Source: Mucilaginibacter sp. L3T2-6
GTDB taxonomy: Bacteria > Bacteroidota > Bacteroidia > Sphingobacteriales > Sphingobacteriaceae
Direction of reading: 5' to 3'
Assembly: GCF_030519355.1 (NCBI RefSeq)
Contig: NZ_JAUMKC010000008.1
Span: forward strand, 62,001-126,000
DNA length: 64,000 bases
The notes beneath the pieces were generated by a model that was not told where the DNA came from, made no database searches, and saw only the letters and a list, made by a program, of their open reading frames with translations. This document shows, piece by piece, positions 5,637 through 55,040 of this stretch (its first letter is position 1; every line of letters starts with the position of its first letter). Made by a program: the position numbers and the translations under genes.

Positions 5637-5640
5637 GGCT

Positions 5641-5806: not shown

Positions 5807-5816
5807 CCTCAAACCG

Positions 5817-5824: not shown

Positions 5825-5828
5825 CCGC

Positions 5829-6353: not shown

Positions 6354-6368
6354 TTATCTGCGTTCCCA

Positions 6369-27112: not shown

Positions 27113-27152
27113 TAATGCTTATCTCGAAAAGTCCGGTGTTAGTTTGACTTTC

Positions 27153-27259: not shown

Positions 27260-27263
27260 AGCA

Positions 27264-36659: not shown

Positions 36660-38240
36660 TTATTTTGAATTGGCCGGGGCTTGCCTGGCTGATTTACCGG
36701 CCTCATTCTTCAAAACAATCAAAGGCATAAATTTATCCCAGTCCTGCTTAACGCCTTTTTGATTAATAAGCCCCCGTCCGGCTACTGAGAAATTGCCCAA
36801 TGCGATATCGGGATAACCATCGTTGTTAATATCTGCAACTTCCATGGCTATCCAGCGCCCGTATTTATTCACGGGCACCTCGTGTGCTTTAAACTTAGCA
36901 GGGCCAGTTTGTTCAAGATAGGTAAAGCCCTGCTGCGGATGATCCAAAAAGTCAGGAAAATAAGAAATTGCGGCTATGTCAAGGTCGCCGTCATGGTCAA
37001 AATCCGCCGCAACCGCTTTAGATGCGCCATTCAAATGATAAAAGTAGCTTTGTTTAAACTTCCAGTCTCCCACATTGGTAAAAATGTAAATTCCATGGTA
37101 TGGTTTTAATATGGGCGAGAGGTCGCTGTTATCGCCGCAGGTATACAAGATATCCAGCTTCCCATCATGGTTAAAATCGACTAATTGAAAACTGCTTGAT
37201 CCGTAAACAGGCGGAAAATGAAGAATGTTCTTTTCGATGAAGCCGCCTTTTTTATTATTTAAAAACATCCAGATACCCTCATCTGCCTGTGCAAACAGGC
37301 ACATTAAATCGGTAAAACCATCGTTGTTAAAATCGCCCGTCACCAAGCCTTCACTGCCTGGCATAGCTCTTATAACCGATTTCTTATAATTGTGATCAGC
37401 CTGTTGGGTAAACAGGTATAAATTACCCTGGTTATTGCCAAAGCCACAAGTTGCGTAGTCCAGCAGACCATCCTTATTAAAATCAGCCGTGACAGTTTGT
37501 ACAGGCCGCGAAAGGTTTTCAGCGATTGGCATAGGCTTCTGACCTGCTTTATCGAGCGTAAGAGCAGTAATAGAGCCCTTTAACAAATCATTGGGATTTA
37601 AAATTCCGATACAGGTGACAACCGCCATATTCTTTCCCCCTGACTGATAAAAATTTGCGTGCACCGCCGGGGATGGCATTTTTGCAACGAGGGCCGGTTT
37701 AAGATCAGCATCCCAGCTGTAAACCTCGTTTTGCATATCACCGGTATACAGCCTTCCATCTGCCGGGTTATAGTTAAGCATCAAGGTGTTGGCCTCATTG
37801 CCTGACTTATTGCTAAGGCCAGCAGGCTTCTGCAGGCTGAATATCGACCAATCAATGCTGGCAGTATCAGCAGGGATTGGAAGTCGTTGCGGAGCGCTAT
37901 TTTTATAAAATGCAACTATGGCTTCAAAATCCGTAACGGAGATTGCCGATTGTACTGTAACTCCGTATTTGGCATGAAAATTTTCGAGTTTTAGCCTGGT
38001 AGCCATGGCAGGCAACACCCTATCTTCCCACGTCTTTTTGTCCAATAATGAAGGCTTGGGGTATTGATGGCAGTTCGAGCAATATACAGGTGCAAGCGCT
38101 GCACCCCGGTCAACTTGTTTTTCTTTTTCGGTTCTTAGATCAACAACGCCGGAAAGCATTGAAATTGCTATAATGACAATAGCGAAGGCTAGTACACCTG
38201 GAAAAAGGTACTTTTTTACCGGGAGATGAAAGTTGCTCAT
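36660..38240 (-). CDS. Cytochrome c-VCBS fusion protein 1
   Basis: 526 residues. An N-terminal membrane anchor (YLFPGVLAFAIVIIAISMLS) is followed by a small c-type heme domain: CSNCH near residue 54, with a candidate axial methionine in VLPAM about 25 residues later. The remainder is a VCBS/FG-GAP beta-propeller with calcium-loop repeats such as DFNKDGLLDYATCG, DFNNDGFTDLMCLF, DFNHDGKLDILYTC, DFDHDGDLDIAAIS and DINNDGYPDIALGN. The propeller is probably an extracytoplasmic binding platform and the heme an electron carrier; no partner is proven. It aligns end to end with the gene at 40046-41590. It is divergent from the seven-heme cytochrome gene. Confidence 0.9.
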   Translation of the reverse strand: MSNFHLPVKKYLFPGVLAFAIVIIAISMLSGVVDLRTEKEKQVDRGAALAPVYCSNCHQYPKPSLLDKKTWEDRVLPAMATRLKLENFHAKYGVTVQSAISVTDFEAIVAFYKNSAPQRLPIPADTASIDWSIFSLQKPAGLSNKSGNEANTLMLNYNPADGRLYTGDMQNEVYSWDADLKPALVAKMPSPAVHANFYQSGGKNMAVVTCIGILNPNDLLKGSITALTLDKAGQKPMPIAENLSRPVQTVTADFNKDGLLDYATCGFGNNQGNLYLFTQQADHNYKKSVIRAMPGSEGLVTGDFNNDGFTDLMCLFAQADEGIWMFLNNKKGGFIEKNILHFPPVYGSSSFQLVDFNHDGKLDILYTCGDNSDLSPILKPYHGIYIFTNVGDWKFKQSYFYHLNGASKAVAADFDHDGDLDIAAISYFPDFLDHPQQGFTYLEQTGPAKFKAHEVPVNKYGRWIAMEVADINNDGYPDIALGNFSVAGRGLINQKGVKQDWDKFMPLIVLKNEAGKSARQAPANSK

Positions 38241-38766
38241 CGATGTTAGACCAAATGTTTCCTACTATAAAAACCTTTCAAATAAACAGTTGCGTTTTAA
38301 AGCTCATATAATCTGTTTGCAGATCTTAAAACGGTACTCCTTTCTGTTCTGCTTTTTCATGAAGCCAGCAGCACCTTCAAGGGTATTATTATTTAATCTT
38401 AAAATACATACGACAATATAATTTAATAAGTTTTTCAATAAGACAACATTTTTAATGATAGCGAAATTTTTACAAAGTATCGCGAATGTTACCCAAGCCC
38501 TCTTTTTATACTAATCCACTGTAAATATTGATGTTATAACATCGATTGACTTTGATGTGGTAACGCCGCCGTTGTCCCCACCACTCCAATTCGTAAGGGC
38601 TTTAAATAGATTTATTATAGGGTTTATACAGGGCTCATTTAAAATGAAATGAAGGATTGTGACTGGATTTATAGATTATATGGGGCGTATTACTCCACTT
38701 AAAAATAACACCTTTTATAAACTAAAAACATAGTAATATCAAGATAATACCAACTATTGAATATAA
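38241..38766. other. Intergenic region between divergent redox genes
   Basis: 526 AT-rich bases. It contains the 14-bp palindrome GATGTTATAACATC at 38530-38543, listed separately. No exact TAnnTTTG box, gene or RNA was recognised. Confidence 0.6.
38530..38543. promoter_or_regulatory. 14-bp perfect palindrome, possible shared operator
   Basis: GATGTTATAACATC is perfectly symmetric and lies in the gap between the divergent cytochrome c-VCBS and seven-heme cytochrome genes, about 290 and 224 bases from their starts. Candidate only. Confidence 0.4.
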
Positions 38767-39993
38767 ATGGCCAGACATAAAATACTTAGATTTCTTATTT
38801 TTCTGATTCCATTACCGTTCTTACTCACTCAGTGCTTAACGGAATCAGCTCCCCCGCCTGATCCGCGCGGACAATTGTATGCAGGCCCGGCTTCATGTGT
38901 AAGCTGCCATAAAGATATTTATCAATCTTATCTCCATACTGCTCACTTTCTGGCATCAAGTGAGGCTTCTGATAGCCTTGTAAAAGGTAGTTTCAGAAAA
39001 GGGCTTAACGAGTTTGCCTTCACCCCTAATACTAAGGTTGTGATGACTAAAGCCGACAGTGGCTTGTATCAAACCAGCTATGTAAATGGTAAACCTGAAC
39101 TAACACGCCGTTTCGACGTAATTTTTGGCGGCGTTAAAGGGCAGACTTATGCTTACTGGCTGGCAAATGAACTCTTCCAGCTGCCAATTTCATACGTCGC
39201 CAACAAACATAGCTGGATAAACAGCCCCGGATATGATTCTACCCGTGCAGTATTCGAACGTGCCGTAAATACGCGATGCCTTGATTGTCACATGTCATAC
39301 GCCAAACAAGAGGCGCCTGAACTTCCGAATTTTTACTCCGGGGTAGAGGGGTTTGAGAAAAACTCACTTGTATTCGGTGTAGATTGCGAGCGCTGCCACG
39401 GGCCTGCAGCACAGCATGTTAAATTCCATACCGATAATCCAACCGAAAAAAAAGCGAAATTTATTGTACCGTTTAGTTCACTTAGCCGTGAGCAAAAGAT
39501 CAATATGTGTGCCGTATGTCATTCTGGGTCGGGCAGCCCTATTATAAAACCTACTTTTGGCTTTAAACCGGGCGATACGTTATCGAAGTTTATAGCCGAA
39601 AACAGGACTTCAGCCCATATAAATTATAAATTTCTTGATGTACATGGCAATCAAAAAGCATTGCTCGAAAGCAGCAAATGCTTTATCAATTCAAACCTGG
39701 ATTGCTCCACCTGCCATAATGCGCATGTTAATGACCGGGACAAGCTTACATTGTATGCATTAAAATGTATGACCTGCCACAGCAAGCGATCGCATACTTA
39801 CTGCACCCTGACGGGCAAATTTACTGAAACTATGCTGACGAATAATTGCATATCATGCCATATGCCTGCCTTTCCTTCTCATACAATCGTAGCAGGCCAG
39901 CAAGGCGCATTAGTACACACCCATCATATTGGCGTGTACCCGGAAGAAACTCAAAAGATATTGGCGTATATAAAAGCCAAAAAGGCATATTGA
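38767..39993 (+). CDS. Seven-heme c-type cytochrome lipoprotein
   Basis: 408 residues. A lipoprotein signal (FLIFLIPLPFLLTQC) puts the lipidated cysteine near residue 23. Seven CxxCH heme sites are present in order: CVSCH, CLDCH, CERCH, CAVCH, CSTCH, CMTCH and CISCH. Several distant histidines (LHTAHF, AAQHVKFH, VHTHHIG) could be axial ligands. The pattern resembles multiheme cytochromes of the c554/doubled-CXXCH kind. It should carry electrons at the outer face of a membrane. It is flanked on both sides by cytochrome c-VCBS genes and is convergent with the 3' end of the SusCD operon. The electron donor and acceptor are unknown. Confidence 0.92.
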   Translation: MARHKILRFLIFLIPLPFLLTQCLTESAPPPDPRGQLYAGPASCVSCHKDIYQSYLHTAHFLASSEASDSLVKGSFRKGLNEFAFTPNTKVVMTKADSGLYQTSYVNGKPELTRRFDVIFGGVKGQTYAYWLANELFQLPISYVANKHSWINSPGYDSTRAVFERAVNTRCLDCHMSYAKQEAPELPNFYSGVEGFEKNSLVFGVDCERCHGPAAQHVKFHTDNPTEKKAKFIVPFSSLSREQKINMCAVCHSGSGSPIIKPTFGFKPGDTLSKFIAENRTSAHINYKFLDVHGNQKALLESSKCFINSNLDCSTCHNAHVNDRDKLTLYALKCMTCHSKRSHTYCTLTGKFTETMLTNNCISCHMPAFPSHTIVAGQQGALVHTHHIGVYPEETQKILAYIKAKKAY

Positions 39994-40045
39994 ACTTCGT
40001 GTCAATCTGCCTTCGACTAAACCGTGACTTTAAATAACAAGTAAG

Positions 40046-41590
40046 CTATCTTTTAAAATTGTTTTGCAGTAGTATAAATGGCGTATTTTTATCCCAGAAT
40101 TGCTTCAACCCATTCTGAAAATTAAATCCGGTGGAGTAATTGGCCAATATAACATCAGGCCTGCCGTCATTATTGTAGTCGCCAACGTCCATATTCATCC
40201 AGCGGCCGTATTTGCTCACCGGTATATTATGCGGTTTAAAACTGAATGGCTTATCCTGCTCAAAATAAATGCAGCTCTCTGCGGGATTATTTTTTAAATC
40301 AGCAAAAAATGCCGAGGTCATAATGTCGAGCTTGCCATCGCCATTAAAGTCGGCGGTCACCAATTTCGTGCAGCCGTTAACCGGATAAAACCATTCCTGC
40401 TTAAAGTTCCAATTACCGGTATTGCGGTATACATAAAGGCCATGGTATGGCTTTAATATTCTTGATTCGTTGTAATTAAAACCACAAGTATAAACCAGGT
40501 CTGGATTACCGTCTTTATCCAAATCGGTGAGTGCAAAATCAGTTGAGCCATAGACCGGCTGAAAACGCAGTAATTGTCTTTCGGTGAAATTTCCATGCTG
40601 ATCATTCAAAAACAATATAAGGCTTTCATCGCCCCTGCCGAATAGTACCATCAGGTCAGTCCACCCGTCATTATTAAAATCGCCCGTAACTTCCTTTACC
40701 GCACCTGGTTTGTTACTTACATTGATTGTTTGATAAGACTTGTCTTTGTTTTGGCGGAATAATGTCACTCCGCCTTTCAGATATCCTTGTCCCAAAACTA
40801 TCCAGTCTACTAAACCATCCTTATTAAAATCGGCTTGTACAGCCTGTACCGCCCGCGGCACTTCGGACGCCAAAACACCAGGTGTAAGCTTATCTCCCTC
40901 GAATTTAAGGTTGATAACCTTACCATTCGGAAAATCAACCGGGTCAAGCTGCCCAATACAAGATATTGTCATACTGGTGCTTCCCTTCTCATCCTTAGCA
41001 AAGCTTGCATTTACGGCCGGTGATGGTAAATTTATCGATCTCTCAGGTTTTAAATCAGCGCCCCACTCCTGCAGCATATGCGAAACGCCGTCGGCCGTAT
41101 AAATTTTATGATTAAATGGATCAATTGTGGCTAATGTAGTATAGGCAACATCTTTTACCGGCCCTGGTTTTTTTAATAAAAAGCCAGCCCAATCGTTCTG
41201 CGCCTCAATTGGCTTTTTTGCTTTAGGGAGCGAATCGGGAGCTACTTTCTGGTAGTAAGATTGAATGTTTTGCCACTCAAGCAAGGTCAATCCACTCGAG
41301 TCTCTCTTGTAATAGCCGTTCATGTAATAGGTTATCCCTACATATTTACTCATTAATGGCAGTGTATGAAATTTCCAGACATCCTTAGTCAGGGCATTCA
41401 CCGGTACCAGGCTATGACATTTGGCGCAGTTTTGCTGCACCAGGTTTTTCCCGTCAACAATCGTATCGCCGGTCAAAACATACCTCGTGCCTGCCGGATG
41501 ACCTTTACAGCCATCCAAAATTACACTGCACGTTACAGCAATAATTATTAAAAATGAAAATACTGTAAGAAAATATGCTTTACGCGTCAT
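40046..41590 (-). CDS. Cytochrome c-VCBS fusion protein 2
   Basis: 514 residues from the ATG at 41590; a TTG three codons earlier is less likely. The N-terminal signal (AYFLTVFSFLIIIAVTCSVI) is followed by LDGC, so it may be a lipoprotein. A heme site CAKCH lies near residue 57 with a candidate ligand methionine in LPLM. The VCBS propeller follows with DFNKDGLVDWIVLG, DFNNDGWTDLMVLF, DLDKDGNPDLVYTC, DFNGDGKLDIMTSA and DYNNDGRPDVILAN. It is a paralogue of 36660-38240, keeping the order and the LKPYHGLYVYRNTG and VSKYGRW blocks. It is last in the apparent susC operon, 24 bases after the haloperoxidase-like gene. Confidence 0.9.
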   Translation of the reverse strand: MTRKAYFLTVFSFLIIIAVTCSVILDGCKGHPAGTRYVLTGDTIVDGKNLVQQNCAKCHSLVPVNALTKDVWKFHTLPLMSKYVGITYYMNGYYKRDSSGLTLLEWQNIQSYYQKVAPDSLPKAKKPIEAQNDWAGFLLKKPGPVKDVAYTTLATIDPFNHKIYTADGVSHMLQEWGADLKPERSINLPSPAVNASFAKDEKGSTSMTISCIGQLDPVDFPNGKVINLKFEGDKLTPGVLASEVPRAVQAVQADFNKDGLVDWIVLGQGYLKGGVTLFRQNKDKSYQTINVSNKPGAVKEVTGDFNNDGWTDLMVLFGRGDESLILFLNDQHGNFTERQLLRFQPVYGSTDFALTDLDKDGNPDLVYTCGFNYNESRILKPYHGLYVYRNTGNWNFKQEWFYPVNGCTKLVTADFNGDGKLDIMTSAFFADLKNNPAESCIYFEQDKPFSFKPHNIPVSKYGRWMNMDVGDYNNDGRPDVILANYSTGFNFQNGLKQFWDKNTPFILLQNNFKR

Positions 41591-41614
41591 AGTAAACAAG
41601 TCAGTAATAACCTA

Positions 41615-42937
41615 TCAATTAGTTAGTTTTAATTTATTCCAAATAAATTCGGCCATTTCCCTGCCCTGCTTTGCACCTAAAAGCGAGCTGTTCAGGTAGT
41701 GGATCCCTCCGTAGTAGCGGCTCATCGCCGTTTCCTGTGCAGCAAGATCAAATGACTTAAAATGACGCTGCATGCCTATATATCTTAAATCGCTTGTATC
41801 CTGAAAATCAAAGTTGTCTCCGAACAAATGAGTCAGCATCACTGCTGATGCGGCGCTGATAGTCGAGTGCCCGGCAGTATATTCAGGGAAAGGCGGCGTT
41901 TGCAGTAACGGCAGCCAGGTATGATCTATTTTTTCATTGATATTGGTAACCGGCCTGGCATAACTATATTTATATTTCACTTCCCAGCAGCAAATAAATG
42001 CGTCATAAAGTGCAATTGAAGTGAGCGCATATGCCTGTGCTGTTTTTATGCCGTCAGCATGTGTTTTTCTGCACGCAATTTCAGTGATGCCAATCCAATG
42101 CCCCCCGGGAGTGATTTTCTTATCAGCAAACATCAGGTGGCCATTGTGCTGTATCACAAAGGGATTATCATCCCAAAATTTTGCTATTTCAATTTGTTCT
42201 TTTGTTAAATTCTTGTTGGTATTATATACATCTGTATACTGTTTCACGTAGGCACTATTCTTGTCCTCGCTGTAGGGTGGCGGCGGCGGCGGCGAAAACT
42301 GAGAAGATGTATCCAAGGCGAACGACTTGATCTCGCCCCAGCAAAATTCAACGCCATCCATATAGTCTGGCGGTGTAGGGCGCCATCTTCCCGGGCCATT
42401 ATCGCCAAGATATTTAGGCTTCCCCCTGGTTTGCGGATAGTTATCCGTCATTGATCTTTTTACCACAAATTTGCCGATTTGCTCGCCAAAAGCAACCGAG
42501 CGTGCAAATGTTGAATCATCGAGGTTGTCTTTATACATCGCATAAACCTTATCCTCGTACTTCTTCAGCGTATCAACGGAAAAAGTAATTTTATGGGCAA
42601 CGGTAAAAAAGGCCTTGGTGGCAGCCAATGCGAAGTTATATTGCTTCCCTTTTTCAGGCGCAGGGGGCGTACCAAACCACTTGAGCTGACTGACTATTGA
42701 ATTGTACTTGGGATCGGCATAACGCATCGCCTCATACGATGCCAATGCAGTATACCCATAAATTCGCGCGGCAACCGGAGGCGTAAACACATCATAAATA
42801 ATTACAGTTGTTAGCTGATTTTCGTTATTGTGCAGCACATCAGCATCACTTAGCATCTTGATCTTATCCTGATGCTTACAGCCAGCAATAACGAATACGA
42901 TGCTTGTAAAAGCGGCTAGTAATTTTAAGTATCTCAT
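41615..42937 (-). CDS. Vanadium haloperoxidase-like (PAP2 superfamily) lipoprotein
   Basis: 440 residues from the ATG at 42937. A lipoprotein signal (LKLLAAFTSIVFVIAGC) is followed by a mostly helical body. All three pieces of the vanadate/phosphate site are seen: KYKYSYARP (K-x6-RP), EYTAGHS (the xGH element) and SRYYGGIHY (SR-x5-H). This layout is shared by vanadium haloperoxidases, which use peroxide to oxidise halides, and PAP2 phosphatases, so catalysis is not settled. Size and the GGIHY ending favour the vanadium-peroxidase branch. An odd SPPPPPPYSEDKN linker stands mid-protein. It lies between two VCBS genes, 17 and 24 bases from them, in the susC operon. Confidence 0.88.
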   Translation of the reverse strand: MRYLKLLAAFTSIVFVIAGCKHQDKIKMLSDADVLHNNENQLTTVIIYDVFTPPVAARIYGYTALASYEAMRYADPKYNSIVSQLKWFGTPPAPEKGKQYNFALAATKAFFTVAHKITFSVDTLKKYEDKVYAMYKDNLDDSTFARSVAFGEQIGKFVVKRSMTDNYPQTRGKPKYLGDNGPGRWRPTPPDYMDGVEFCWGEIKSFALDTSSQFSPPPPPPYSEDKNSAYVKQYTDVYNTNKNLTKEQIEIAKFWDDNPFVIQHNGHLMFADKKITPGGHWIGITEIACRKTHADGIKTAQAYALTSIALYDAFICCWEVKYKYSYARPVTNINEKIDHTWLPLLQTPPFPEYTAGHSTISAASAVMLTHLFGDNFDFQDTSDLRYIGMQRHFKSFDLAAQETAMSRYYGGIHYLNSSLLGAKQGREMAEFIWNKLKLTN

Positions 42938-42954
42938 AATAATAAACAATAGTA

Positions 42955-45900
42955 TTAATTCAGGGGAATATTTCTCGTGTGTCCAAAGCTATCAGTTACG
43001 CTTACCGATTGCATAGTCTGGTCAATATTAAAAAATCTGCCCGATTGCGACAAAAACGATGTACCATTATAAAACTCCATCTTTCCTGTTTTGCCGTTCT
43101 TATATCTTATCGTGGCAAACATATCAAGAGGTTTCAGGGCGACACTTTTAACATTACGTTTCAGTTCAAAAACCTTCATAGCGTCCCGGTTTTGGGTTGC
43201 TGCTATCATATAATTGCCCTTCGCTCCCCGTAGCTTAACCAAAGCCTTTCCATCGCCCGGAATGTATAAGCCGCTCTTTTGCAATGAAAGTGCCTTAAAA
43301 CCGCCCCTTCCGTCGCCTTTCAATAAAAGCCCGTTAAATGCATCATATCTGCCGGTAGACACGTCGGTACCAAAATCATTCCCGCTTATTGCCACGTCAA
43401 GGTTGCCATCGCCATCAAAATCGTCAACCACTATCCCGTCGAGCTGAGACATTTGCGCTTCTATAGGTAATGGTGTTATTTTGAATTTTCCGTTGCCTTC
43501 GTTCTGGAGATAACAGGATTGCAGGATATTAGCTTTTAACCTTACTGCCCCCTCGCGCATTGCAGGGGTGATCACTGAGTCCATCGTTGCGGTAGCAAAC
43601 GATTTATAATTCTGAAACTTTACGCGCATACTGATCATTTGTTTCACAATATCATCGCGTGTGTAGGCCGGAAATTCCTTTAGCTTTCCATCCTGATCTT
43701 TCAGAAAAACAGATGGGAAAGCATCATAACTGCCATTTTTATCAAAATCTTTGGCAGTAATATAAACCGGGTATTGCTCTGACGCCTTAAAAAAGGTGTT
43801 TAACCCTGTATTACCAACAATGTAGTCTGTTTTGCCATCATGATTAAAATCACCGGCAGCAATGGTATTCCACCAGCCAAGCTTATCGCTTATGCCTGTA
43901 CCGGAGGTAACGTTTTTAAATACGCCGCGGTCATTTTTCAGAAAAGTTATCGGCATCCATTCTCCGGTAAGAATTAAATCCGGCCAGCCATCGTTATCAA
44001 AGTCCGAAAAGGTGGCATCGCATACCAAACCTATGTTTTTCAAATCTTTTGCTACAGTGGCGGTAACATCGGTAAACTTCACATGTCCATCCTTGCTGTC
44101 GTTGCGCAATATAATGCTCGAAACAGGCTTAGGATAACTCCATGGCTCTACCCTGCCCGATACAAATAAGTCAAGCCTGCCATCTTTATTAAAGTCGATA
44201 GCCTTTACACAAAGCTTGCTGGTTGTATTTGAAGGCAGCGCGTCTTCCTGTAATTTAAAATTACCTTTACCGTCATTTAAGTAAAGCCTGTCCTGGTAAA
44301 AAGCTGAATTGGGTGTCTTCTCGTAACCGCCGCTGGCAACGTAAAGATCCAGGTCGCCATCACCGTCGGCATCAAAAAGCAGCAATCCTTCGTCCTTAAA
44401 TTGTTCTGTATTTACCGTTAAGCCCATACTTAAATTCGGCTGTGCCGAAACCTGTTTCTGTTCAGGTGCAAGCGGCCTTTGTACAAATTTGCCATTTGCC
44501 TGCTGCAATAGCAGCTGAGCCGGATATTTGGTAGTACCGCCCACAACCATATCGTCGAACCCGTTACCATCAACATCGCCAACGGCCACAGCCGGAGTAT
44601 ATTGAGACAGTTTATGTGGTAAAAGCTTCTGAATATTAAAGTCGGCAAGATCGTCCTCTTTGTGTCTGTAAGTAACCCCAACAGAACGTGTTACTTCTCG
44701 AAACAATGATTGGCTGTTTAACGTGGGTTCCTTAAAACTGTAATTTTCATGTGCATCAGCAATAGATACCGTTAATACTCTATCAGCTTTAACATGCTTC
44801 AACGTCTGTTTTTTGCCATTTTCCCATCTTATTACTACAGAGTCGAGCAATGAATCGCGGCCTAAGCCAAAATGTGCTATATTTTGAATGGTTGATAAAT
44901 ACCCCCTGAATGGTGTATTTTCATAAACCTGGTGTTTTCCTTTATCATAATAAATATCAGCCCAGGCGCCTATGCCGTTAATATTTTGCGGCCCGCCCTT
45001 AAACTGTATCTGCAGGTAATGGTTTCCTGCCTTATCTTTATCGCGCAAGGTATTTTTATAGACAAATGCCTCGTCGTCGATGTTGTTGATAACCATATCC
45101 ATATCGCCATCGCCATCAAGATCAGCGTATGCAGCGCCGTTTGAAAATGACGGCTCGGTTAACCCCCAATTTTTGCTTACATCAGCAAACTCAAGGTTTC
45201 CGCCGTTTTTGAAGGCATAATTCGGAATTTTAACAATTGGTATTTGGTCGAGAATTTGCTTTTTACTGGCAATTAAATATGCCTCCGCCCTAAACGTAGT
45301 AAAATCGTGATCAGTTACATCGCGGGGATAACCATTAGTTATCACAATATCGCGGTATCCATCGTTATCAAAATCGGTAATTAAAGGGCACCAGCTCCAA
45401 TCAGTTTGGGCTGTGCCGCTTAAAAAAGAAGTTTCGCTGAAAGCGGGGGCGCCTACAGAGTCATTCTGACCCGGCCTTGGCCCCTGGTTAATTTGTAATG
45501 TATTACGGTTATACTGGTATTGATAGCCATAATAATCAAAGTTTTGGTATAACTGGTAAGTGTTTGAACTCATGAACATTTTGCGCCGGTAATTGTCTTC
45601 CGGGCTCATATCCAGCTCAAAAACATCCGCCAGGCCATCATTATTAATGTCCTCTATATCCTGCCCCATTGCACTATTGGCGGTGTGCTTAAAGTATTCT
45701 CTTGTCCTATCGGTAAAAGTACCGTCGTGATTGTTAATGTAAAGAATGTTATTGCTTAAAAAATCGTTGGTCACATAAATATCCTTCCAGCCGTCGCGGT
45801 TTATATCTGCAATACTTGCTGCATGACCATAGCCTTCTATAAGTATACCCGCCTGTTTGGAAACATTATGATAAACACCATGCTTTAAAACCGGGTCCCA

Positions 45901-46572
45901 ATCATTCCGGTATAACCTGCCTGTACTTCTCCTGGATCCGTCAGTACTTATTGGCCTGAAACTACTCGTATTTTCGTTGGGAGCGGCTTCGTTTACCGTA
46001 AGGTACATATCCAGGTCGCCGTCGTTATCATAATCAAAAAACGAGGCCATGGTTGAGTGCACATTTATATCCAGGCCATATTCTTTTCCCATCTCTTTAA
46101 AATGAGGTATTCCCTGTTTATCTATTCCCTGGTTTACATATAACAGGTTACGCCTTTTAACAGAATCATTCAGCAACGTATAGCACACGTAAATATCCAA
46201 CAAACCATCATTGTTGATATCAACTACAGCAACACCCCTGCCCCAGCCGCTGGAACCTTCTGCGCCTGCTTCTTTGGTGACATCCTGAAATTTTAGTTCG
46301 CCTTTATTCAGATAGAGCTTATTTGAAACAGCATTGCCTACAAAGTACAGGTCAGGTCTCCCATCGTTGTTAAAATCGCCTATCCCAACCCCACCACCGT
46401 TGTAAATATTTAACTTATCCAGTGGATTGATCGTGTCATTTTCAATTATAGTATTTGCGAAAGTCACGCCGGAATAAGAGGAGGGTATTTTTTCAAATAA
46501 AGTATCTTTATGCTTACATGAAAAAAGGAATACAGGAATGCAAAAAAGAATAATAAAACGCAGCAATCTCAT
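42955..46572 (-). CDS. Giant VCBS-repeat lipoprotein with ASPIC/UnbV domain
   Basis: 1205 residues. A lipoprotein signal (RFIILFCIPVFLFSC) opens the protein. A first VCBS propeller (VGIGDFNNDGRPDLYFVGN, VDINNDGLLDIYVC, DYDNDGDLDMYLTV, DINRDGWKDIYVTN) leads to an ASPIC/UnbV domain at about residues 520-610 (NINGIGAWADIYYDKGKHQV, STIQNIAHFGLG, VVIRWENGKKQTLKHV). A second set of VCBS repeats follows (DVDGNGFDDMVVGG, DADGDGDLDLYVAS, DFNHDGKTDYIVGN, DFDGDGNLDVAISG). It probably acts as a surface binding scaffold. It follows susD by 80 bases containing a hairpin, and precedes the haloperoxidase-like gene by 17. Confidence 0.93.
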   Translation of the reverse strand: MRLLRFIILFCIPVFLFSCKHKDTLFEKIPSSYSGVTFANTIIENDTINPLDKLNIYNGGGVGIGDFNNDGRPDLYFVGNAVSNKLYLNKGELKFQDVTKEAGAEGSSGWGRGVAVVDINNDGLLDIYVCYTLLNDSVKRRNLLYVNQGIDKQGIPHFKEMGKEYGLDINVHSTMASFFDYDNDGDLDMYLTVNEAAPNENTSSFRPISTDGSRRSTGRLYRNDWDPVLKHGVYHNVSKQAGILIEGYGHAASIADINRDGWKDIYVTNDFLSNNILYINNHDGTFTDRTREYFKHTANSAMGQDIEDINNDGLADVFELDMSPEDNYRRKMFMSSNTYQLYQNFDYYGYQYQYNRNTLQINQGPRPGQNDSVGAPAFSETSFLSGTAQTDWSWCPLITDFDNDGYRDIVITNGYPRDVTDHDFTTFRAEAYLIASKKQILDQIPIVKIPNYAFKNGGNLEFADVSKNWGLTEPSFSNGAAYADLDGDGDMDMVINNIDDEAFVYKNTLRDKDKAGNHYLQIQFKGGPQNINGIGAWADIYYDKGKHQVYENTPFRGYLSTIQNIAHFGLGRDSLLDSVVIRWENGKKQTLKHVKADRVLTVSIADAHENYSFKEPTLNSQSLFREVTRSVGVTYRHKEDDLADFNIQKLLPHKLSQYTPAVAVGDVDGNGFDDMVVGGTTKYPAQLLLQQANGKFVQRPLAPEQKQVSAQPNLSMGLTVNTEQFKDEGLLLFDADGDGDLDLYVASGGYEKTPNSAFYQDRLYLNDGKGNFKLQEDALPSNTTSKLCVKAIDFNKDGRLDLFVSGRVEPWSYPKPVSSIILRNDSKDGHVKFTDVTATVAKDLKNIGLVCDATFSDFDNDGWPDLILTGEWMPITFLKNDRGVFKNVTSGTGISDKLGWWNTIAAGDFNHDGKTDYIVGNTGLNTFFKASEQYPVYITAKDFDKNGSYDAFPSVFLKDQDGKLKEFPAYTRDDIVKQMISMRVKFQNYKSFATATMDSVITPAMREGAVRLKANILQSCYLQNEGNGKFKITPLPIEAQMSQLDGIVVDDFDGDGNLDVAISGNDFGTDVSTGRYDAFNGLLLKGDGRGGFKALSLQKSGLYIPGDGKALVKLRGAKGNYMIAATQNRDAMKVFELKRNVKSVALKPLDMFATIRYKNGKTGKMEFYNGTSFLSQSGRFFNIDQTMQSVSVTDSFGHTRNIPLN

Positions 46573-46600
46573 AGTTTTAAATCACGCTAATGTATAAAAT

Positions 46601-46637
46601 AAAAAAGAGGCGAAGATATCATCCTCACCTCTTTTTT
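46601..46637 (-). terminator. Hairpin between susD and the VCBS lipoprotein gene
   Basis: AAAAAAGAGG at 46601-46610 pairs with CCTCTTTTTT at 46628-46637 around a 17-base loop, ending in a T run on either strand. On the minus strand it comes right after the susD stop and 28 bases before the next ATG. It would lower expression of the three downstream genes relative to susCD rather than end the operon. Confidence 0.75.
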
Positions 46638-46652
46638 ATTAAAATTTCAGGA

Positions 46653-48518
46653 TCAATTGTAACCGGCGTTTTGTTTAATTGCGCCGTTGGTTAAGTTGAT
46701 TTGTGAAATCGGAACAGGGAACACTTCGCTCTTTCCTTGTACAAAGTGAGCACTATTCAATAATGCTGAAGGGAAGTTTGGCACATGAATTTCATGGTTA
46801 AGATAGCTATTTAAAACATTAGCCATAAAACCTGCACCCATAGGGCCACCGAAACGGCCATCCCAACGCTGAAGGTCGAAGAAACGGTGTCCTTCCATAC
46901 CAAGCTCAATCCTGCGCTCAAACTGAACCGCCTTGCGTGCGAAGTCTTTACCCTGCAATGCAAAACTCATTGTGGGATTCTGTTTGCCGCCGTGGGCTGC
47001 TGCCGCATAAGTGCCATAGTAACCAACTTTGTAGTTAGCAGCAGGCACATCGGTAAAGCCACCAAGCGGTTTAGAGTCATCCTTGTAAGTATGTACCCAG
47101 CCGGTTGGGTCCGCAGCACGATCCCTTACCATATTAACATAATTCTGTGCTTTATCCAGGCTACCTATTTCAATTTCACACTCAGCTGCCCACAAAAGCA
47201 CATCAGCAAAGCGGATAGCGTTGTAACCGTTAGCAACAGACTGGTTTGGAGCCCAACCTTCGTATGTTTCGCTGGTTGATGCCTGAGCAGCCTGGTAGTA
47301 AGTATTTTTGATAGGAACGTACGGACCACCGTCTGTTTGGTCACGGGCCCAAGATGCACCCGGCATTACACCCCAATCCAGGTAAGGAATACCACGACGA
47401 CCTACAGACCAGTCTAAACGAGGGTCAAGTGTGCCGGTATAAGGTGTAAATGGCTTATCAGCAGCTATGTTCTGGTCATTTTTGATGTCACTGTCATTGT
47501 AGGTATCTAACAATGGCAAGCCAGTTGTTGCATCAACCTTAAATGCGTTAGCAAAGCTAAATGATGGCTGGAAGAAACCGCAGCAAGTAGCAGGACCGGC
47601 TGAAGGGAAGTTCAAGGTACCGCCCGAAGATCCGTTATCGCCGTTTGAACCGTCATGTACAGAAGCCTGGATAACAAAAACGCCTTCAGAGTTATTTTTT
47701 GTTTGAGCGTTAAAGTTGTCAGCATAATGAACCAAGGCATATTTAGCGCCGCTTGACGTAACGCCGTTAGCAATCAGGTCATTCAATGCAGCCAGCGCCT
47801 TGTCATACTTATGGTCGAACATATACGCCTTGGCTAAAAATGCTTCAGCAGCGTATTTGTTTACACGGCCTTTTTCAGCTTGTGTAGCAGGCAGGTCCGC
47901 CATTGCTGCTGTCAAATCAGCCTCAATCTTGTCCCACACCTGGGTTGGGTTACCTATATTGTAGTTACCGTTGTCATAGGTGATGGTTTCATCAGCATAT
48001 GGTACATACTGCCATAATTTAGCAAGGTCAAACTCATAAAATGCGCGCAGAAATTTGGCTTCTGCCGTTACTTCTTTTGCATAAGCAGCAGATACTGAAC
48101 CGTCTTTTACCAGCGGCAGCTCGCGCAATACATCATTGGCGCGCTGAACGCCGTTAAACATTACGCGCCATTTCGGATCAAGGTAACCGTTGCCCGATGT
48201 AGCGATGTATGCTTCGATTTTACCGGCATCAGCCTGGTCATCAGGGGTAGAGCCTTTATGCGCATCATCGGCTGCAACACTGCCATAAATCCAGTTGTCG
48301 GTACCGGTCATCCAGGTGTTTCCGGGCTGACCTCCGTAGGTGCCATCCAATAAGGAGTACGCACCGATTAACAATCCGTCAACGCCGGCCTTATTGGCCA
48401 GGATGATGGTGTTCAATGATCCCGTAGGTGTTCTGTTAAGGTAATCCTTGCACGAATAGCTGAGTGCAAGTACCGCCATAGCACCGGGGACGATTAGTTT
48501 GCTATTAAATTTTTTCAT
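46653..48518 (-). CDS. SusD/RagB-family glycan-binding lipoprotein
   Basis: 621 residues. A lipoprotein signal (LIVPGAMAVLALSYSC) is followed by KDYLNRTPTGSLN, the usual start of mature SusD proteins. Tetratricopeptide-like helices follow (EVTAEAKFLRAFYEFDLAKL, KYAAEAFLAKAYMFDHKYDK). The C-terminal RagB region includes YNAIRFADVLLWAAECEIEI and ERRIELGMEGHRFFDLQRW. SusD sits on top of the TonB-dependent SusC channel at the cell surface and captures the ligand. The start lies 24 bases after the susC stop. The ligand is unknown; nearby GH2 and GH3 genes suggest beta-linked sugars. Confidence 0.97.
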   Translation of the reverse strand: MKKFNSKLIVPGAMAVLALSYSCKDYLNRTPTGSLNTIILANKAGVDGLLIGAYSLLDGTYGGQPGNTWMTGTDNWIYGSVAADDAHKGSTPDDQADAGKIEAYIATSGNGYLDPKWRVMFNGVQRANDVLRELPLVKDGSVSAAYAKEVTAEAKFLRAFYEFDLAKLWQYVPYADETITYDNGNYNIGNPTQVWDKIEADLTAAMADLPATQAEKGRVNKYAAEAFLAKAYMFDHKYDKALAALNDLIANGVTSSGAKYALVHYADNFNAQTKNNSEGVFVIQASVHDGSNGDNGSSGGTLNFPSAGPATCCGFFQPSFSFANAFKVDATTGLPLLDTYNDSDIKNDQNIAADKPFTPYTGTLDPRLDWSVGRRGIPYLDWGVMPGASWARDQTDGGPYVPIKNTYYQAAQASTSETYEGWAPNQSVANGYNAIRFADVLLWAAECEIEIGSLDKAQNYVNMVRDRAADPTGWVHTYKDDSKPLGGFTDVPAANYKVGYYGTYAAAAHGGKQNPTMSFALQGKDFARKAVQFERRIELGMEGHRFFDLQRWDGRFGGPMGAGFMANVLNSYLNHEIHVPNFPSALLNSAHFVQGKSEVFPVPISQINLTNGAIKQNAGYN

Positions 48519-48542
48519 AACTATATTATTTTGTCTTAGTCA

Positions 48543-51500
48543 TTAAAATGATAAGTTAACACCAAAAATGTATTTCTTCTCGTTGTTTGGATATGCACCT
48601 ATGTCGGTACCCAAACCGTTGCTTCCTACAGCTGGTAATTCCGGATCGAGCCCTTTGTATTTAGTAGCTGTGAACAAGTTAATGCCTTGAGCATAAATGC
48701 GCAGCTTATCAACGCCGATAGATTTAAGCAGATTTGCTTTAAATGTATAGCCGAGTGATAATGAACGCATTTTAAGGAATGAGCCGCCAGATACATACCA
48801 CGAGTTGATGGTGCTGCTGGTACCGAATCCACCTATCGCGGCTGCTTTTGGAGTTGCTGCATTAGGGTTGCTTGGGGTCCATGAGTTAAATAACAGGTCG
48901 TTGCTCTTGTTGCCCGCAAATGTATCACCAAAATCTACCCAATATTTGGTATAGTTGTATATTTTGGCGCCATAAGAACCGTACAATACTGTTGACAGAT
49001 CGAAGCCTTTCCAGGTTGCACTTAAGTTAATACCATAAGTGAATTTAGGGTTCGGGTTACCGATAAATGTACGGTCGGCATCAGTTATTACACCGTCGCC
49101 ATTAACATCACGGTATTTAAAGTCACCCAATGATTCACCACCATTATTCAAACCGTTTTGATAAACTGCACCGGCCTGGCCTGTTTTAGCAGCCGCATTG
49201 GCATTAGCAGCGTCAATTTCTGCCTGGGTATTCCAGTAACCATCAACCTGGTAGCCGAAAAACTCTCCGATCGGGTGACCAACCTGGTTTTTTACCAGCG
49301 CGTCCTGACGCTGATAGTTAGAATAGAAATAGTCGTTCTTTACGTCGTTAGAGATCTTGTCGATATTACTGTGGTAAGTAGTAATGTTTGCGCCTGCGTT
49401 AAAGCTCACTTCGCTGCTTAGCTTTCCATGGTAATTTGCCGATATCTCAATACCTCTATTGGAAACCTGGCCTACGTTAACTACCGGTGGATTAGCACCC
49501 CCTACTGTTGCAGGCAAAGTAACAGCGTACAGCAAATCTTTACTGATCTTATTAAACCATTCTACTGACACATCCAAATGATTGAACAATGATGCATCTA
49601 AACCTACGTTGGCTATCGCGTCAGATTCCCAGCTTGTTTTCCTGTTACCGATCTGCGAGGCATAGAAACCACCGGTTGCGGAGTTGATACCGCCGCCTAT
49701 CGCATAAGAGGCCGGGCCTATACCTGACCTGAATGCTGAATAGGGGTTGCCATCACCAATATTACCGTCATAACCTAATTCACCATAGCTTCCGCGAAGT
49801 TTCAAGTCATTGATCCATGACACGCCTTTTAAGAAATCTTCCTGAGAAAGGCGCCATGCTAACGACACTGATGGGAATGTACCCCACTGCCTGCCAGGAT
49901 AGAAACGTGAAGCACCGTCTCGGCGGATAGTTGCAGCTAAGATATAGCGGTCATTGAATATGTAATCTAAACGGCCGAAGAATGACAACTGTGAATAACG
50001 TGGGCCCGGGCCGCCGCTTGCAAGTATTGAAGAAGCAGTACCATTACCAATGCTCACATAAGCAGGATCAAGTGAAAACAGGTTGTTAACAGAAGCGCTT
50101 ACATTTTGTGAAAGCTCATCTTTCGCCTCAAAGCCTGCGAATGCCTTTATGTTGTGCTTACCGAATACCTGGCTGTACTGAACAGTGTTGGTCCAGTTAT
50201 AAGCGCTGCCATAACCTGCGCCAGTATTATAACCGTTTGCCCCGGCATGACCTTCACCAGACCAGTAAGGGTTAAGCACAGTGTTATTATAATAGTAGTT
50301 ATAAATAGTGGTACCTACCTGCGTTTTAGCAGTAAAATGTTTCAGGAAGTCAACTTCGGCATAAGTAGATCCAACTATGTTCCAGGTGCGGCTTAAATCA
50401 AGGCCGTTTTGATATTGCGTTGCTACGGGGTTGTTACCGTTACCCAATTGGGTTAAACCGTCGTAAGTACCACCGAAGTTACCTTTAATATCATACACTG
50501 GTATCTGAGGTTCCATGCGGTAGCTGTATGATATCGCATTACCTTCACCCTGGTTACCGCCCGGGATATTTCCGCTACCCTGAGGACTTTCGTCAAAATA
50601 AACGTTTAATGTTTCACCTACCCGTATCGAGTTGCTTAATGAGAAGTTGGTATTTATACGGGCCTGATACTTTTTGTAGAAAGTATTAATCAGCGTACCC
50701 TGTTGATTCAAATACCCTAAAGAGAAATAGTAATTATTCTTCTCATTAGCGCCGCTAGCAGATACCGTGTGCGACTGAACAGGTGCATTTTTGAACAAAG
50801 CATGGAACCAATCGGTACCCTGGCCTTTAACAAATTTTTGAATCAGGTAGTCGTTACCCGGGTTGTTAGGATCCAGGTTATATTTAGCCGGATCTACAGC
50901 AGGATCGCCTTCATTAGCCTGTCCTTTTGCACCCGGGCCCTGGTAACCATAATCGTAAAAATGGCCTCCGTTGTCTTTAATTAAAAGGTTGTCCGGTTGG
51001 ATCTGACGCAATAAGGCTTCAAAATTATCAGCGGTTAACACGTTGAACGGATTGCCTCCCAGTGCGATCTGATCACCGTAATAAGCGTCATAAGTAAACC
51101 TGGTTTTGCCCTGTTTACCTTTTTTAGTGGTAATAACCACCACACCGTTACCACCCGCAACACCGTAGATAGCCGCAGAACCTGCATCCTTTAACACGTT
51201 GATTGACTCAATGTCGTTCGGGTTCAAGTCGCCCATGCCACTGCGCTGTACACCGTCGATTACATATAAGGGACTCGAATTGTCGAAGTTACTTATACCA
51301 CGAATATAAACGTTAGCGCCGGCGCCAGGAGCACCCTGCTCAACAACGGTAACACCAGCTGCCTGACCCTGCAGTAACGACTCTGCGTTGGTAGTTGGCA
51401 CAACCTTAGCCGCAGCCACGTCTACCGTTGCTACCGCACCGGAGATGTCTTTTTTGCGCTGGGTTTGGTAACCTGTAACAATTACCTCGTTCAGCGTGTT

Positions 51501-51812
51501 GCTGGCCGGAGTTAAAGTGATTGTAAGATACTGATCGTTCTGAACAGTAACTTCTTTTGTTTGATAGGTAAGATAACTTACAACAAGTACGTTACCCGGA
51601 CTCAGGTTAAGGCTAAATTCGCCGTTAACGTCCGTAACAGCGCCGGTATTGGTGCCTTTAATCCTTACGGATGCACCAACCACAGGTTGCTTGTCATCGC
51701 TGCCGATAACCTTACCTGTGTGTTTTGTTTGCGCTGTAACTACCAATGAAGAAATCATGCAGCATAGCAGCAGACACAATGTTCTTCCCCTTAGGAGTAA
51801 ACTTTTAAACAT
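48543..51812 (-). CDS. SusC/RagA-family TonB-dependent outer membrane receptor
   Basis: 1089 residues. Signal peptide (LCLLLCCMISSLVVTAQ). A carboxypeptidase-like regulatory domain follows (GKVIGSDDKQPVVGASVRIK, TDVNGEFSLNLSPG), then the plug (NEVIVTGYQTQRKKDISGAV, GVTVVEQGAPGAGANVYIRG, SPLYVIDGVQRSGMGDLNPN). The barrel ends in KKYIFGVNLSF with a terminal aromatic. SusC forms the channel that imports glycan fragments with TonB energy. There is no N-terminal signalling domain for an anti-sigma factor, so regulation is elsewhere; the Nudix-type regulator is a candidate. It heads the five-gene operon. The ~800-base upstream region holds a GC-rich leader hairpin and a repeat-like motif. Confidence 0.97.
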   Translation of the reverse strand: MFKSLLLRGRTLCLLLCCMISSLVVTAQTKHTGKVIGSDDKQPVVGASVRIKGTNTGAVTDVNGEFSLNLSPGNVLVVSYLTYQTKEVTVQNDQYLTITLTPASNTLNEVIVTGYQTQRKKDISGAVATVDVAAAKVVPTTNAESLLQGQAAGVTVVEQGAPGAGANVYIRGISNFDNSSPLYVIDGVQRSGMGDLNPNDIESINVLKDAGSAAIYGVAGGNGVVVITTKKGKQGKTRFTYDAYYGDQIALGGNPFNVLTADNFEALLRQIQPDNLLIKDNGGHFYDYGYQGPGAKGQANEGDPAVDPAKYNLDPNNPGNDYLIQKFVKGQGTDWFHALFKNAPVQSHTVSASGANEKNNYYFSLGYLNQQGTLINTFYKKYQARINTNFSLSNSIRVGETLNVYFDESPQGSGNIPGGNQGEGNAISYSYRMEPQIPVYDIKGNFGGTYDGLTQLGNGNNPVATQYQNGLDLSRTWNIVGSTYAEVDFLKHFTAKTQVGTTIYNYYYNNTVLNPYWSGEGHAGANGYNTGAGYGSAYNWTNTVQYSQVFGKHNIKAFAGFEAKDELSQNVSASVNNLFSLDPAYVSIGNGTASSILASGGPGPRYSQLSFFGRLDYIFNDRYILAATIRRDGASRFYPGRQWGTFPSVSLAWRLSQEDFLKGVSWINDLKLRGSYGELGYDGNIGDGNPYSAFRSGIGPASYAIGGGINSATGGFYASQIGNRKTSWESDAIANVGLDASLFNHLDVSVEWFNKISKDLLYAVTLPATVGGANPPVVNVGQVSNRGIEISANYHGKLSSEVSFNAGANITTYHSNIDKISNDVKNDYFYSNYQRQDALVKNQVGHPIGEFFGYQVDGYWNTQAEIDAANANAAAKTGQAGAVYQNGLNNGGESLGDFKYRDVNGDGVITDADRTFIGNPNPKFTYGINLSATWKGFDLSTVLYGSYGAKIYNYTKYWVDFGDTFAGNKSNDLLFNSWTPSNPNAATPKAAAIGGFGTSSTINSWYVSGGSFLKMRSLSLGYTFKANLLKSIGVDKLRIYAQGINLFTATKYKGLDPELPAVGSNGLGTDIGAYPNNEKKYIFGVNLSF

Positions 51813-52609: not shown

Positions 52610-54937
52610 TTACTTTTTAAGCCATTGAAGAGAGGCTGATTGCACATCGCTGGAGTTAGTACCGATTTGCACGATAAACTGACCGGGTTCCCAATCATAA
52701 ACCAGCTTTTCATTATAAAATTTCAGATCATTAGTAGTAATATTAAATGATACTACTTTGCTCTCGCCGGGCTGCAGGTATATCTTCTTAAAGTTCTTCA
52801 ATTCCTTTACCGAACGGCTGATGCTTGCTACCGGGTCTGCTATATATAACTGTACCACTTCTTCCCCGGCATACTTCCCGGTATTGGTTACCGTTACCGA
52901 AGCTTTTACCGTTGTATTACCAACGGGGTTAGTTTTATCCAGCTGCACGGCGCTGTAACTAAACGTAGTGTAACTTAAACCGTAACCGAATGGATACAAC
53001 GGATCGTTTGAGATATCAAGGTAATCCGACTTAAATTTTGCGCCGCCTTTCCCGTCGAACGGACGCCCGGTATTTTTATGTGCGTAATATAAAGGTATTT
53101 GCCCAACACTGCGGGGGAAGGTTGCAGTAATTTTGCCTCCGGGATTGTAGTTTCCAAATAACACATCAGCGATAGCATTTCCGGCTTCAGTCCCCGGCGC
53201 CCAGGCATCAAGTATTGCAGCGGCGTGTTTGTCTTCCCAGGTTAAAGTAAGCGGACGGCCATTAAATAATACAATAACCAAAGGCTTTCCTGTTGCCGAC
53301 AAGGCCTTCAATAAATTTTTCTGACTTTCGGGGATGTCAATATCTGCACGGCTTGACGATTCGCCCGACATATTAGCGGACTCCCCTACTACCGCGACAA
53401 CAACGTCAGCTTTTTTTGCAGTTTCAACAGCTTCGTCAATCATCTCTTGCGGCGTACGCTTGTCTTTTGCTTCAGGAGCAGTTAGTGCGAACGCCCGGGC
53501 GCTAAGCAGCGAATCATCAGTAATATTTGAGCCACGGGCATAAAGTACTTTTACATCATTGCCTGCTATATTCTTAATACCCTCTGCAACGCTTACCGAT
53601 TTATTGGGGTCGCCAGCAATTACCCAGGTACCCAGCATTTCGGAATGATTATCAGCCAGCGGACCAACCAAAGCTATGGTGCCTGATTTTTTAAGGGGCA
53701 ATGTTTCATTGCTGTTTTTTAAAAGTACAAAGGAATGCTCAGCAATCTTCCTGGCAAACTTGCGGGTTTCATCATTAAACACATCCTGTTTTTCGCGGTC
53801 CGGGTTTATCGATTTATAGGCATTATTAAATAGGCCCAGTTTATATTTTGCCTCCAGCACGCGGCGGCAAGCCATGTCAATTTCCTGCTGAGTTATCTTT
53901 CCTTCTTTCAGCGATTTTTTTAAAGTGGTTAAAAAACCTTCGCCTACCATATCCATATCCAGTCCGGCTTTTAGCGCCAAAGCTGCTACTGTTTGCAGGT
54001 CGCCCAGGCCGTGGTTGGTAACTTCATTAAGCGCAGTATAATCAGATACAACAAAACCTTTAAAGCCCCATTGCTTCCGGAGCAGGTCGGTCAGCAGCCA
54101 TTTATTAACGGTAGCAGGTATGCCGTTAATCGTATTAAACGAGCTCATAAAGCTACCTGCACCCGCATCAATTGCAGCTTTGTAGGGCGGCAGGTAATCC
54201 TGGTACATTTTAATCAGGCTCATATCAACGGTATTGTATTCCCGGCCTGCTTCTGCACCTCCGTACAAAGCAAAGTGTTTAACACAGGCCATAACGGCAT
54301 CTGCATCGCTCATGCTTTTTCCCTGGTAGCCACGTACCATTGCTTTTGCTACCTGTGATCCGTACCAGGGGTCTTCGCCCGAGCCTTCCGAAATGCGGCC
54401 CCAGCGTGGGTCGCGGGCGATATCAACCATTGGCGAGAACACCCAGTTTAAGCCTTCGGCGGTGGCTTCCTTAGCAGCCGTCCTCGCTGATTGCTCAATC
54501 AGTCCCATATCCCAGGTTGCTGATACACCCAATGGAATAGGGAATATGGTGCGGTGGCCGTGAATAACATCGAGGCCAAATATTAAAGGTATATGCAGGC
54601 GCGAATTCTTTACGGCCACGTCCTGGAATCGTTTTATGCTTTCGGTGCCCCAGGTTCCAAATAATCCGCCAATCTCTCCTTTCTTCAATTTTTCTTCGAT
54701 GCCCTTGCTCATGGTGGTACCCGTCGCCACATTACCTGTTACGACAAGGTTAAGCTGACCGATTTTTTCATCAACCGTCATTTTGCTCATCAGCTTAGTA
54801 ACAAAAGGCTCCATGCCAAGGGTTACCGAACCACCCATGCCATCTTTTGATTGTGCCGACGCTTGTTGCAAAGGCGCAGCGATGGCAAAAAGAACCGCAG
54901 CCGCAAATGCGGTTTTTAGCGAAAGATATTTATTCAT
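52610..54937 (-). CDS. GH3 beta-glucosidase
   Basis: 775 residues from the ATG at 54937; a GTG two codons earlier is less likely. A signal peptide is visible (LKTAFAAAVLFAIAAPLQQASA). The GH3 barrel carries the catalytic aspartate in GFVSDYTALNEV, with KHFALYGGAEAGREYNTVDM and FSPMVDIARDPRWGRISEGSG upstream. The second domain has the LALVGPLADN-type strand and the PLYPFGYGLSYTTF sugar-site loop. The fibronectin-III-like end (GEEVVQLYIADPVASISRSV) completes the BglX layout. It is periplasmic and removes terminal beta-linked glucose. It is divergent from the Nudix regulator and upstream of, but separated by a terminator from, the susC operon. Confidence 0.96.
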   Translation of the reverse strand: MNKYLSLKTAFAAAVLFAIAAPLQQASAQSKDGMGGSVTLGMEPFVTKLMSKMTVDEKIGQLNLVVTGNVATGTTMSKGIEEKLKKGEIGGLFGTWGTESIKRFQDVAVKNSRLHIPLIFGLDVIHGHRTIFPIPLGVSATWDMGLIEQSARTAAKEATAEGLNWVFSPMVDIARDPRWGRISEGSGEDPWYGSQVAKAMVRGYQGKSMSDADAVMACVKHFALYGGAEAGREYNTVDMSLIKMYQDYLPPYKAAIDAGAGSFMSSFNTINGIPATVNKWLLTDLLRKQWGFKGFVVSDYTALNEVTNHGLGDLQTVAALALKAGLDMDMVGEGFLTTLKKSLKEGKITQQEIDMACRRVLEAKYKLGLFNNAYKSINPDREKQDVFNDETRKFARKIAEHSFVLLKNSNETLPLKKSGTIALVGPLADNHSEMLGTWVIAGDPNKSVSVAEGIKNIAGNDVKVLYARGSNITDDSLLSARAFALTAPEAKDKRTPQEMIDEAVETAKKADVVVAVVGESANMSGESSSRADIDIPESQKNLLKALSATGKPLVIVLFNGRPLTLTWEDKHAAAILDAWAPGTEAGNAIADVLFGNYNPGGKITATFPRSVGQIPLYYAHKNTGRPFDGKGGAKFKSDYLDISNDPLYPFGYGLSYTTFSYSAVQLDKTNPVGNTTVKASVTVTNTGKYAGEEVVQLYIADPVASISRSVKELKNFKKIYLQPGESKVVSFNITTNDLKFYNEKLVYDWEPGQFIVQIGTNSSDVQSASLQWLKK

Positions 54938-55040
54938 TATCACGAATTATAAATTTTAATATGAGTGCACCAGCTACCGGTATCTATAAGATTATCAGTG
55001 CCATTACCCGAAATTCTATCTTAACAAAATATAATTGGCT

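Follow-up and report, generated by a model that had tools for sequence, protein, structure and literature searches.

When Zobellia grows on the brown alga A. nodosum, its vIPO3 is induced, together with stress responses to reactive oxygen species and halocarbons (PMC9296495), and in Arenibacter C-21, which has at least five homologues of the vanadium haloperoxidase family (VHPO), a peroxide source is coupled to haloperoxidase-dependent iodine uptake (PMC5064120). The VCBS propellers include aldos-2-ulose-type dehydratases and lectins (PMC8023676). From the papers that we searched, it is not clear what vanadium iodoperoxidases do for the bacteria that make them. Here, we analyzed a 64,000-nucleotide stretch of the genome of Mucilaginibacter sp. 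L3T2-6, a soil bacterium (contig NZ_JAUMKC010000008.1, positions 62,001 to 126,000; hereafter, the window), in which a VHPO lipoprotein is encoded in a gene cluster together with SusC and SusD homologues (SusCD), c-type heme proteins, and a large lipoprotein that combines an FG-GAP (VCBS) β-propeller with a UnbV_ASPIC domain (the ASPIC lipoprotein). This combination recurs in the genus, simpler forms of it are found across Bacteroidota, and the locus is conserved and real.

By its testable defining features, the locus is a polysaccharide utilization locus (PUL), with adjacent susC and susD homologues separated by 24 bp and with linked carbohydrate-active enzymes of glycoside hydrolase (GH) families 2 and 3 that recur in relatives; its redox-gene content is apparently undescribed. 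In the open-access literature searched, a set that omits most subscription journals, we found no description of a PUL with VHPO, ASPIC, and cytochromes, nothing on haloperoxidase with SusD and Bacteroidetes, and nothing relevant on UnbV with SusD.

Layout and conservation of the operon

Genes and families were read from the listing of open reading frames (ORFs) and from scans for Pfam and NCBIfam families. The first gene of the operon, which lies on the minus strand, encodes a SusC/RagA TonB-dependent outer membrane receptor (48543 to 51812; TIGR04056, 821 bits). It is followed on the same strand by genes for a SusD/RagB surface lipoprotein (46653 to 48518; PF07980, E value of 1.3 × 10−35), whose top solved relatives in a comparison with the PDB were 5t3r (E value of 5.9 × 10−48), 6z8i, and 5lx8, the last named a SusD homolog; the ASPIC lipoprotein of 1,205 amino acids (42955 to 46572; PF13517 and PF07593), related to CRTAC1 in the PDB (9etn, E value of 2.6 × 10−13); the VHPO lipoprotein (41615 to 42937); and a protein with an N-terminal monoheme c domain, an FG-GAP propeller, and a lipobox-like cysteine (heme-FGGAP-A; 40046 to 41590). 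Alongside lie a heptaheme c-type lipoprotein with seven CxxCH motifs on the plus strand (38767 to 39993) and, on the minus strand, a second monoheme c protein with an FG-GAP propeller (heme-FGGAP-B; 36660 to 38240; PF13517, E value of 1.2 × 10−30). All seven genes and their families had been named correctly in the initial annotation, and the gaps of 24, 80, 17, and 24 bases that it reported within the operon hold when VHPO starts at the ATG at 42937 and heme-FGGAP-A at the ATG at 41590; the longer TTG starts proposed by the ORF finder for these two genes give gaps of 5 and 15 bases instead. Lipobox-like cysteines are also visible in SusD, the ASPIC lipoprotein, VHPO, and the heptaheme protein, and heme-FGGAP-B has a hydrophobic N-terminal segment with no lipobox seen in its sequence. 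A scan for promoters and terminators gave counts no higher than the shuffled level.

When GTDB genomes were scanned with the window VHPO, 64 loci were obtained, nearly all from Mucilaginibacter, and 54 of them had enough flanking sequence. The ASPIC gene lay directly upstream of VHPO in 51 of these 54 loci, with a spacing of −38 to 22 bp. A SusC match was present in 48 and either SusC or SusD in 50, a heme-FGGAP gene was found in 47, GH2 in 28, and the heptaheme gene in 17; the gene order was retained in most of the Mucilaginibacter loci examined. The pairing extends across the phylum. Among 392 sampled genomes, 99 had a VHPO match, and 77 Zobellia-type VHPO loci could be read to about 9 kb. 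An ASPIC-type gene was found on the same strand within about 9 kb of VHPO at 57 of these (directly upstream at 39), compared with about 0.8 expected by chance from 4.7 ASPIC genes per genome. The linkage counts among relatives and phylum-wide reject a chance neighbourhood and bear out the initial proposal that the five genes form a conserved unit. UnbV_ASPIC was present in all 71 genomes with a Zobellia-type VHPO versus 126 of the 321 others (Fisher test, 4 × 10−25); neither the linkage counts nor this comparison is adjusted for relatedness. SusC or SusD was detected at 34 of the 77 loci, a conservative figure, with some loci being cut. The genome that contains the window has no more than five ASPIC genes; each lies close to a gene for SusC, and VHPO adjoins four of them.

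The haloperoxidase-family and heme proteins

VHPO, which Pfam assigns to PAP2, matched the Zobellia iodoperoxidase ZgVIPO1 (4CIT/4USZ) over its full length, with an E value of 8.9 × 10−124 and 44.7% identity over 432 aligned positions, and on sequence we place it firmly in the Zobellia iodoperoxidase homology group. The haloperoxidase-like family membership claimed at the outset was thus corroborated, the family including a proven haloperoxidase, and the unspecific label "haloperoxidase-like or phosphatase" could be replaced by this group as a statement of homology and not of activity. The vanadate ligands K324, R331, G359, H360, R410, and H416 are all retained (ZgVIPO1 numbering, which we take to be native and offset by 8 from the PDB chain). 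Two aromatic residues that presumably line the halide pocket, judging from the related chloroperoxidase, are conserved as well, W321 in 147 of 147 and F353 in 146 of 147 VHPO homologues.

In heme-FGGAP-A, the CxxCH motif at residue 58 is invariant among 56 homologues, as is Met83, which may be the distal heme ligand. In its model (pLDDT of 90), a propeller carries a heme domain that is small and helical, and the propeller fold of the model by itself assigns the protein no function. Heme-FGGAP-B matches heme-FGGAP-A at 41%, and heme-FGGAP genes adjoin SusCD and ASPIC genes in several other families. The heptaheme protein is the sole copy in its own genome, and all seven of its CxxCH motifs are conserved; its model, poor overall (pLDDT of 57), contains a β domain inserted between the first two CxxCH sites.

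The second heme gene of the locus proved to be exchangeable. Across 46 orthologous loci, 25 carried a second heme-FGGAP gene without the heptaheme gene, 17 showed the reverse, one (the window) had both, and three had neither, and on the VHPO tree at least eight swaps between heme-FGGAP-B and the heptaheme gene were counted. In an independent-pairs test, differing pairs were always opposite in direction, with five pairs on strongly supported branches and a median P value of 0.125; since the independent pairs number only five, a Fisher test of the exclusion overstates its significance. Such mutual replacement would be expected if heme-FGGAP-B and the heptaheme protein filled one electron transfer slot, as we infer.

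Outside the VHPO loci, members of the heptaheme family were found in SusCD loci of two kinds. Some also encode a laminin-G lectin, ASPIC, and GH30 enzymes that are related, below the family cut-off, to endo-β-1,6-glucanase; in others, the companions are GH30 and GH5-CBM6. Six such SusCD loci (L247 to L251 and L266), with lectin, ASPIC, and GH30 or GH5 and no VHPO in the stretch read, are probably β-glucan PULs. At another locus, L168, from the genus of the window, a PVC-type heme-binding CxxCH protein (4777 to 7443; TIGR02604/TIGR02603) stands beside the SusCD, ASPIC, VHPO, and heme-FGGAP genes.

Sugar context and neighbouring genes

The initial annotation had limited the cluster to seven genes and had remarked that no glycoside hydrolase was part of the operon. 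The first statement proved too narrow and the second misleading, as GH2 and GH3 recur in the locus and its paralogues have genes for GH65, GH130, GH43, or LacZ. A gene for a GH2 glycosidase (33739 to 36537, minus strand; PF18368 and PF22666) follows heme-FGGAP-B after 122 bp in the same orientation. Because the heptaheme gene, on the opposite strand, separates the two heme-FGGAP genes, heme-FGGAP-B and GH2 probably constitute a second transcription unit. The nearest solved relative of the GH2 protein is the exo-β-D-glucosaminidase CsxA (2vzo, E value of 2.4 × 10−74), and PF18368 is a glucosaminidase Ig domain. At the place aligned with D469, which we take to be the acid/base residue of CsxA, the window protein has Asn-Glu, and the aligned chain, possibly a mutant, also has Glu. 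Upstream of susC lie genes for a BglX-type GH3 β-glucosidase (52610 to 54943, minus strand; NF011678, 1,000 bits, above the cut-off) and for a regulator with NUDIX and NrtR/AraR winged-helix domains (55125 to 55886, plus strand; PF21906, PF19368, and PF00293). GH3 matches occur upstream of susC in many relatives, and the NUDIX/NrtR-type regulator is present at the relative locus L010 too.

The VHPO-ASPIC pair is a module set in several different sugar loci and is not bound to a single glycan, because the GH content differs among the sister loci and the loci of other families. Within the same genome, genes beside SusCD-ASPIC encode GH65 and GH130 at one sister locus (C24), a hybrid two-component regulator together with GH2 of the LacZ type at another (C33), GH43 with a sensor kinase of the Reg_prop type at a third (C28, with no VHPO in the stretch read), and FecR and a third heme-FGGAP protein at a fourth (C6). 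In other families, the VHPO neighbours include GH65, trehalase, GH30, fucosidase, and sodium:solute symporters, and one of the GH65 neighbours is a kojibiose hydrolase (L163; NF053734, 1,209 bits). Another recurrent VHPO arrangement was observed at L139, L141, L161 to L164, and L166, where a GH65-sized gene is followed by an ORF of about 185 amino acids, by VHPO, and then by genes for two unknown proteins (about 360 and 312 amino acids). Many of these loci have a further, divergent VHPO, and in several, Cys occupies position 358.

The initial annotation had also asked whether relatives carry susCD without the redox genes, and the answer is divided. SusCD-ASPIC loci without VHPO do exist (C28 and L247 to L249), but of the Mucilaginibacter genomes examined, nearly all have the redox genes at the orthologous locus.

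A flavin adenine dinucleotide (FAD)-type amine oxidase is encoded 91 bp downstream of GH2 (32340 to 33647, minus strand; PF01593, E value of 4.4 × 10−60). It is a possible peroxide source, apparently cytoplasmic, with no signal peptide seen in its sequence. It adjoins the orthologous cluster in only 14 of 53 loci, the window included, and was rejected as an obligate source.

Elsewhere in the window, positions of about 563 to 950 and 1969 to 2359 are 93% identical over 391 bp, the former being a partial duplicate of the 3′ end of a dnaE-like gene (2010 to 5600) that yields a truncated ORF of 131 amino acids (601 to 996). An S-adenosylmethionine riboswitch (RF00162, 62 bits; 27152 to 27260, minus strand) was identified upstream of a metH-like gene (23308 to 27018).

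Proposed function of the redox genes and likeness to known systems

The reading that we tentatively favour, while giving it somewhat less than an even chance, is that a surface redox module has been added to a PUL. Capture and import of a sugar-containing molecule would fall to SusC and SusD, a part of the initial proposal that our data support; its picture of a locus devoid of glycoside hydrolases is not supported. The ASPIC lipoprotein would probably serve as a scaffold for binding at the surface, the glycoside being trimmed by GH2 and GH3. Beside the scaffold, the VHPO lipoprotein would use H2O2 to oxidize a halide, which homology suggests to be iodide or bromide, and the reactive halogen, or the consumption of peroxide, would act on the captured material or on surrounding peroxide. 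Electrons would be carried in the same compartment by the heptaheme cytochrome and the proteins that join heme c to FG-GAP, with the second heme slot taking either. Gene content and order, their conservation, the family assignments, and the exchange of the second heme gene are observed directly; the outer-surface location, the capture and import by SusCD, the peroxide and halide chemistry, and the electron transfer are all predicted from the protein families. A stronger version, in which VHPO and interchangeable mono- and multiheme cytochromes on the ASPIC scaffold oxidize a SusCD-held glycoconjugate and thereby enable its import, would define an oxidative class of PULs; oxidation before import is plausible, if speculative, and this version as a whole appears rather doubtful.

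In favour of a surface redox module are the gene order retained in Mucilaginibacter, the ASPIC-VHPO pairing across the phylum, the sugar genes and regulators of the sister loci, the recurrence of heptaheme and heme-FGGAP genes at SusCD loci elsewhere, the likeness of VHPO to ZgVIPO1, and the mutual exclusion of heme-FGGAP-B and the heptaheme gene. Several observations weigh against it. The heptaheme gene runs opposite to the two heme-FGGAP genes that flank it, and no dedicated peroxide producer is conserved at the locus, as the distribution of the amine oxidase illustrates. The vanadate contact Ser358 is replaced by Ala in the window VHPO and its whole clade; in the close set, 27 of 63 loci have Ala. 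Heme-FGGAP genes occur at only 4 of the 77 phylum-wide VHPO loci, most of which are without heme genes. Moreover, the related SusCD-ASPIC loci L247 to L249 retain the heptaheme gene in the absence of VHPO from the stretch read, so that peroxide chemistry is not an obligate part.

A different use of the same chemistry would be defence or peroxide removal: VHPO and the cytochromes may be co-expressed with feeding and never act on the imported substrate, destroying peroxide or making hypohalite to counter competitors and the defences of plants, lichens, or algae. The downstream amine oxidase, which would make peroxide, and the Zobellia and Arenibacter findings cited at the outset favour this account; it leaves unexplained, however, why an ASPIC scaffold beside SusCD is the partner and why such a variety of PUL types surrounds the pair, and we regard it as unlikely. 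That VHPO instead acts as a PAP2-type phosphatase and strips phosphate from a glycan bound to SusCD-ASPIC, while the cytochromes have an unrelated respiratory or protective role, is suggested by the fold and ligands common to VHPO and PAP2 acid phosphatases, by the Pfam call, and by the kojibiose hydrolase of some related loci, kojibiose being found in phosphate-rich teichoic acids. The sole close solved relative is nevertheless an iodoperoxidase, W321 and F353 are conserved, and the change of Ser358 to Ala would be expected to weaken phosphate binding as well, all of which makes this alternative distinctly improbable.

The same substitution, which arose once on the VHPO tree and marks the entire window clade, could also mean that catalysis has been lost there and that VHPO persists in the SusCD-ASPIC complex as a lipoprotein that only binds. 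Yet the catalytic His360 and every other vanadate ligand are retained, the sister clade, which like nearly all other homologues carries Ser358, has the same locus, and Cys occurs at this position in some other lineages; such a loss would be quite surprising. The absence of heme genes from most phylum-wide VHPO loci and the varying GH families nearby would also fit redox genes that are mere passengers of the PUL and do not work together, but the tight spacing and order retained over about 50 loci and the repeated swapping of the second heme gene render this highly improbable.

The repeated presence of heme proteins in PULs suggests that aerobic Bacteroidota may depend, when they use glycans, on outer-surface electron transfer to an extent that has been overlooked. 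With one constant partner, the ASPIC/FG-GAP lipoprotein, and a link to SusCD, in non-marine genera as well, bacterial VHPOs now have a concrete place in which their role can be tested.

Compared with known systems, the locus resembles a Bacteroidota SusCD PUL in its SusC-SusD pair at the head, its surface lipoproteins, its GH genes, and the sugar-type regulator nearby; it differs in that the ASPIC/FG-GAP giant sits where surface binding proteins usually do, that VHPO and c-type cytochromes are added, and that GH genes are few. The window VHPO is homologous to ZgVIPO1 throughout and keeps its vanadate ligands together with W321 and F353, whereas it is a lipoprotein within a PUL and has Ala, Phe, and Glu in place of Ser358, Tyr263, and Asp322. 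Judged by overall fold only, the modelled heme-FGGAP-A propeller superposes on aldos-2-ulose dehydratase (Z score of 30.7, 352 residues, 3.2 Å), integrins (about 28), and CRTAC1 (26.3, 349 residues, 3.0 Å), from which it differs by an identity of only about 12 to 15% and by its extra N-terminal heme c domain. Like the multiheme cytochromes c554/c7 and the decaheme GSU2203-like proteins, which it matches in Pfam and, below the cut-off, in NCBIfam, the heptaheme protein has several CxxCH motifs, but it stands apart from them in its seven hemes, in the β domain inserted between the first two motifs, and in its location within a PUL.

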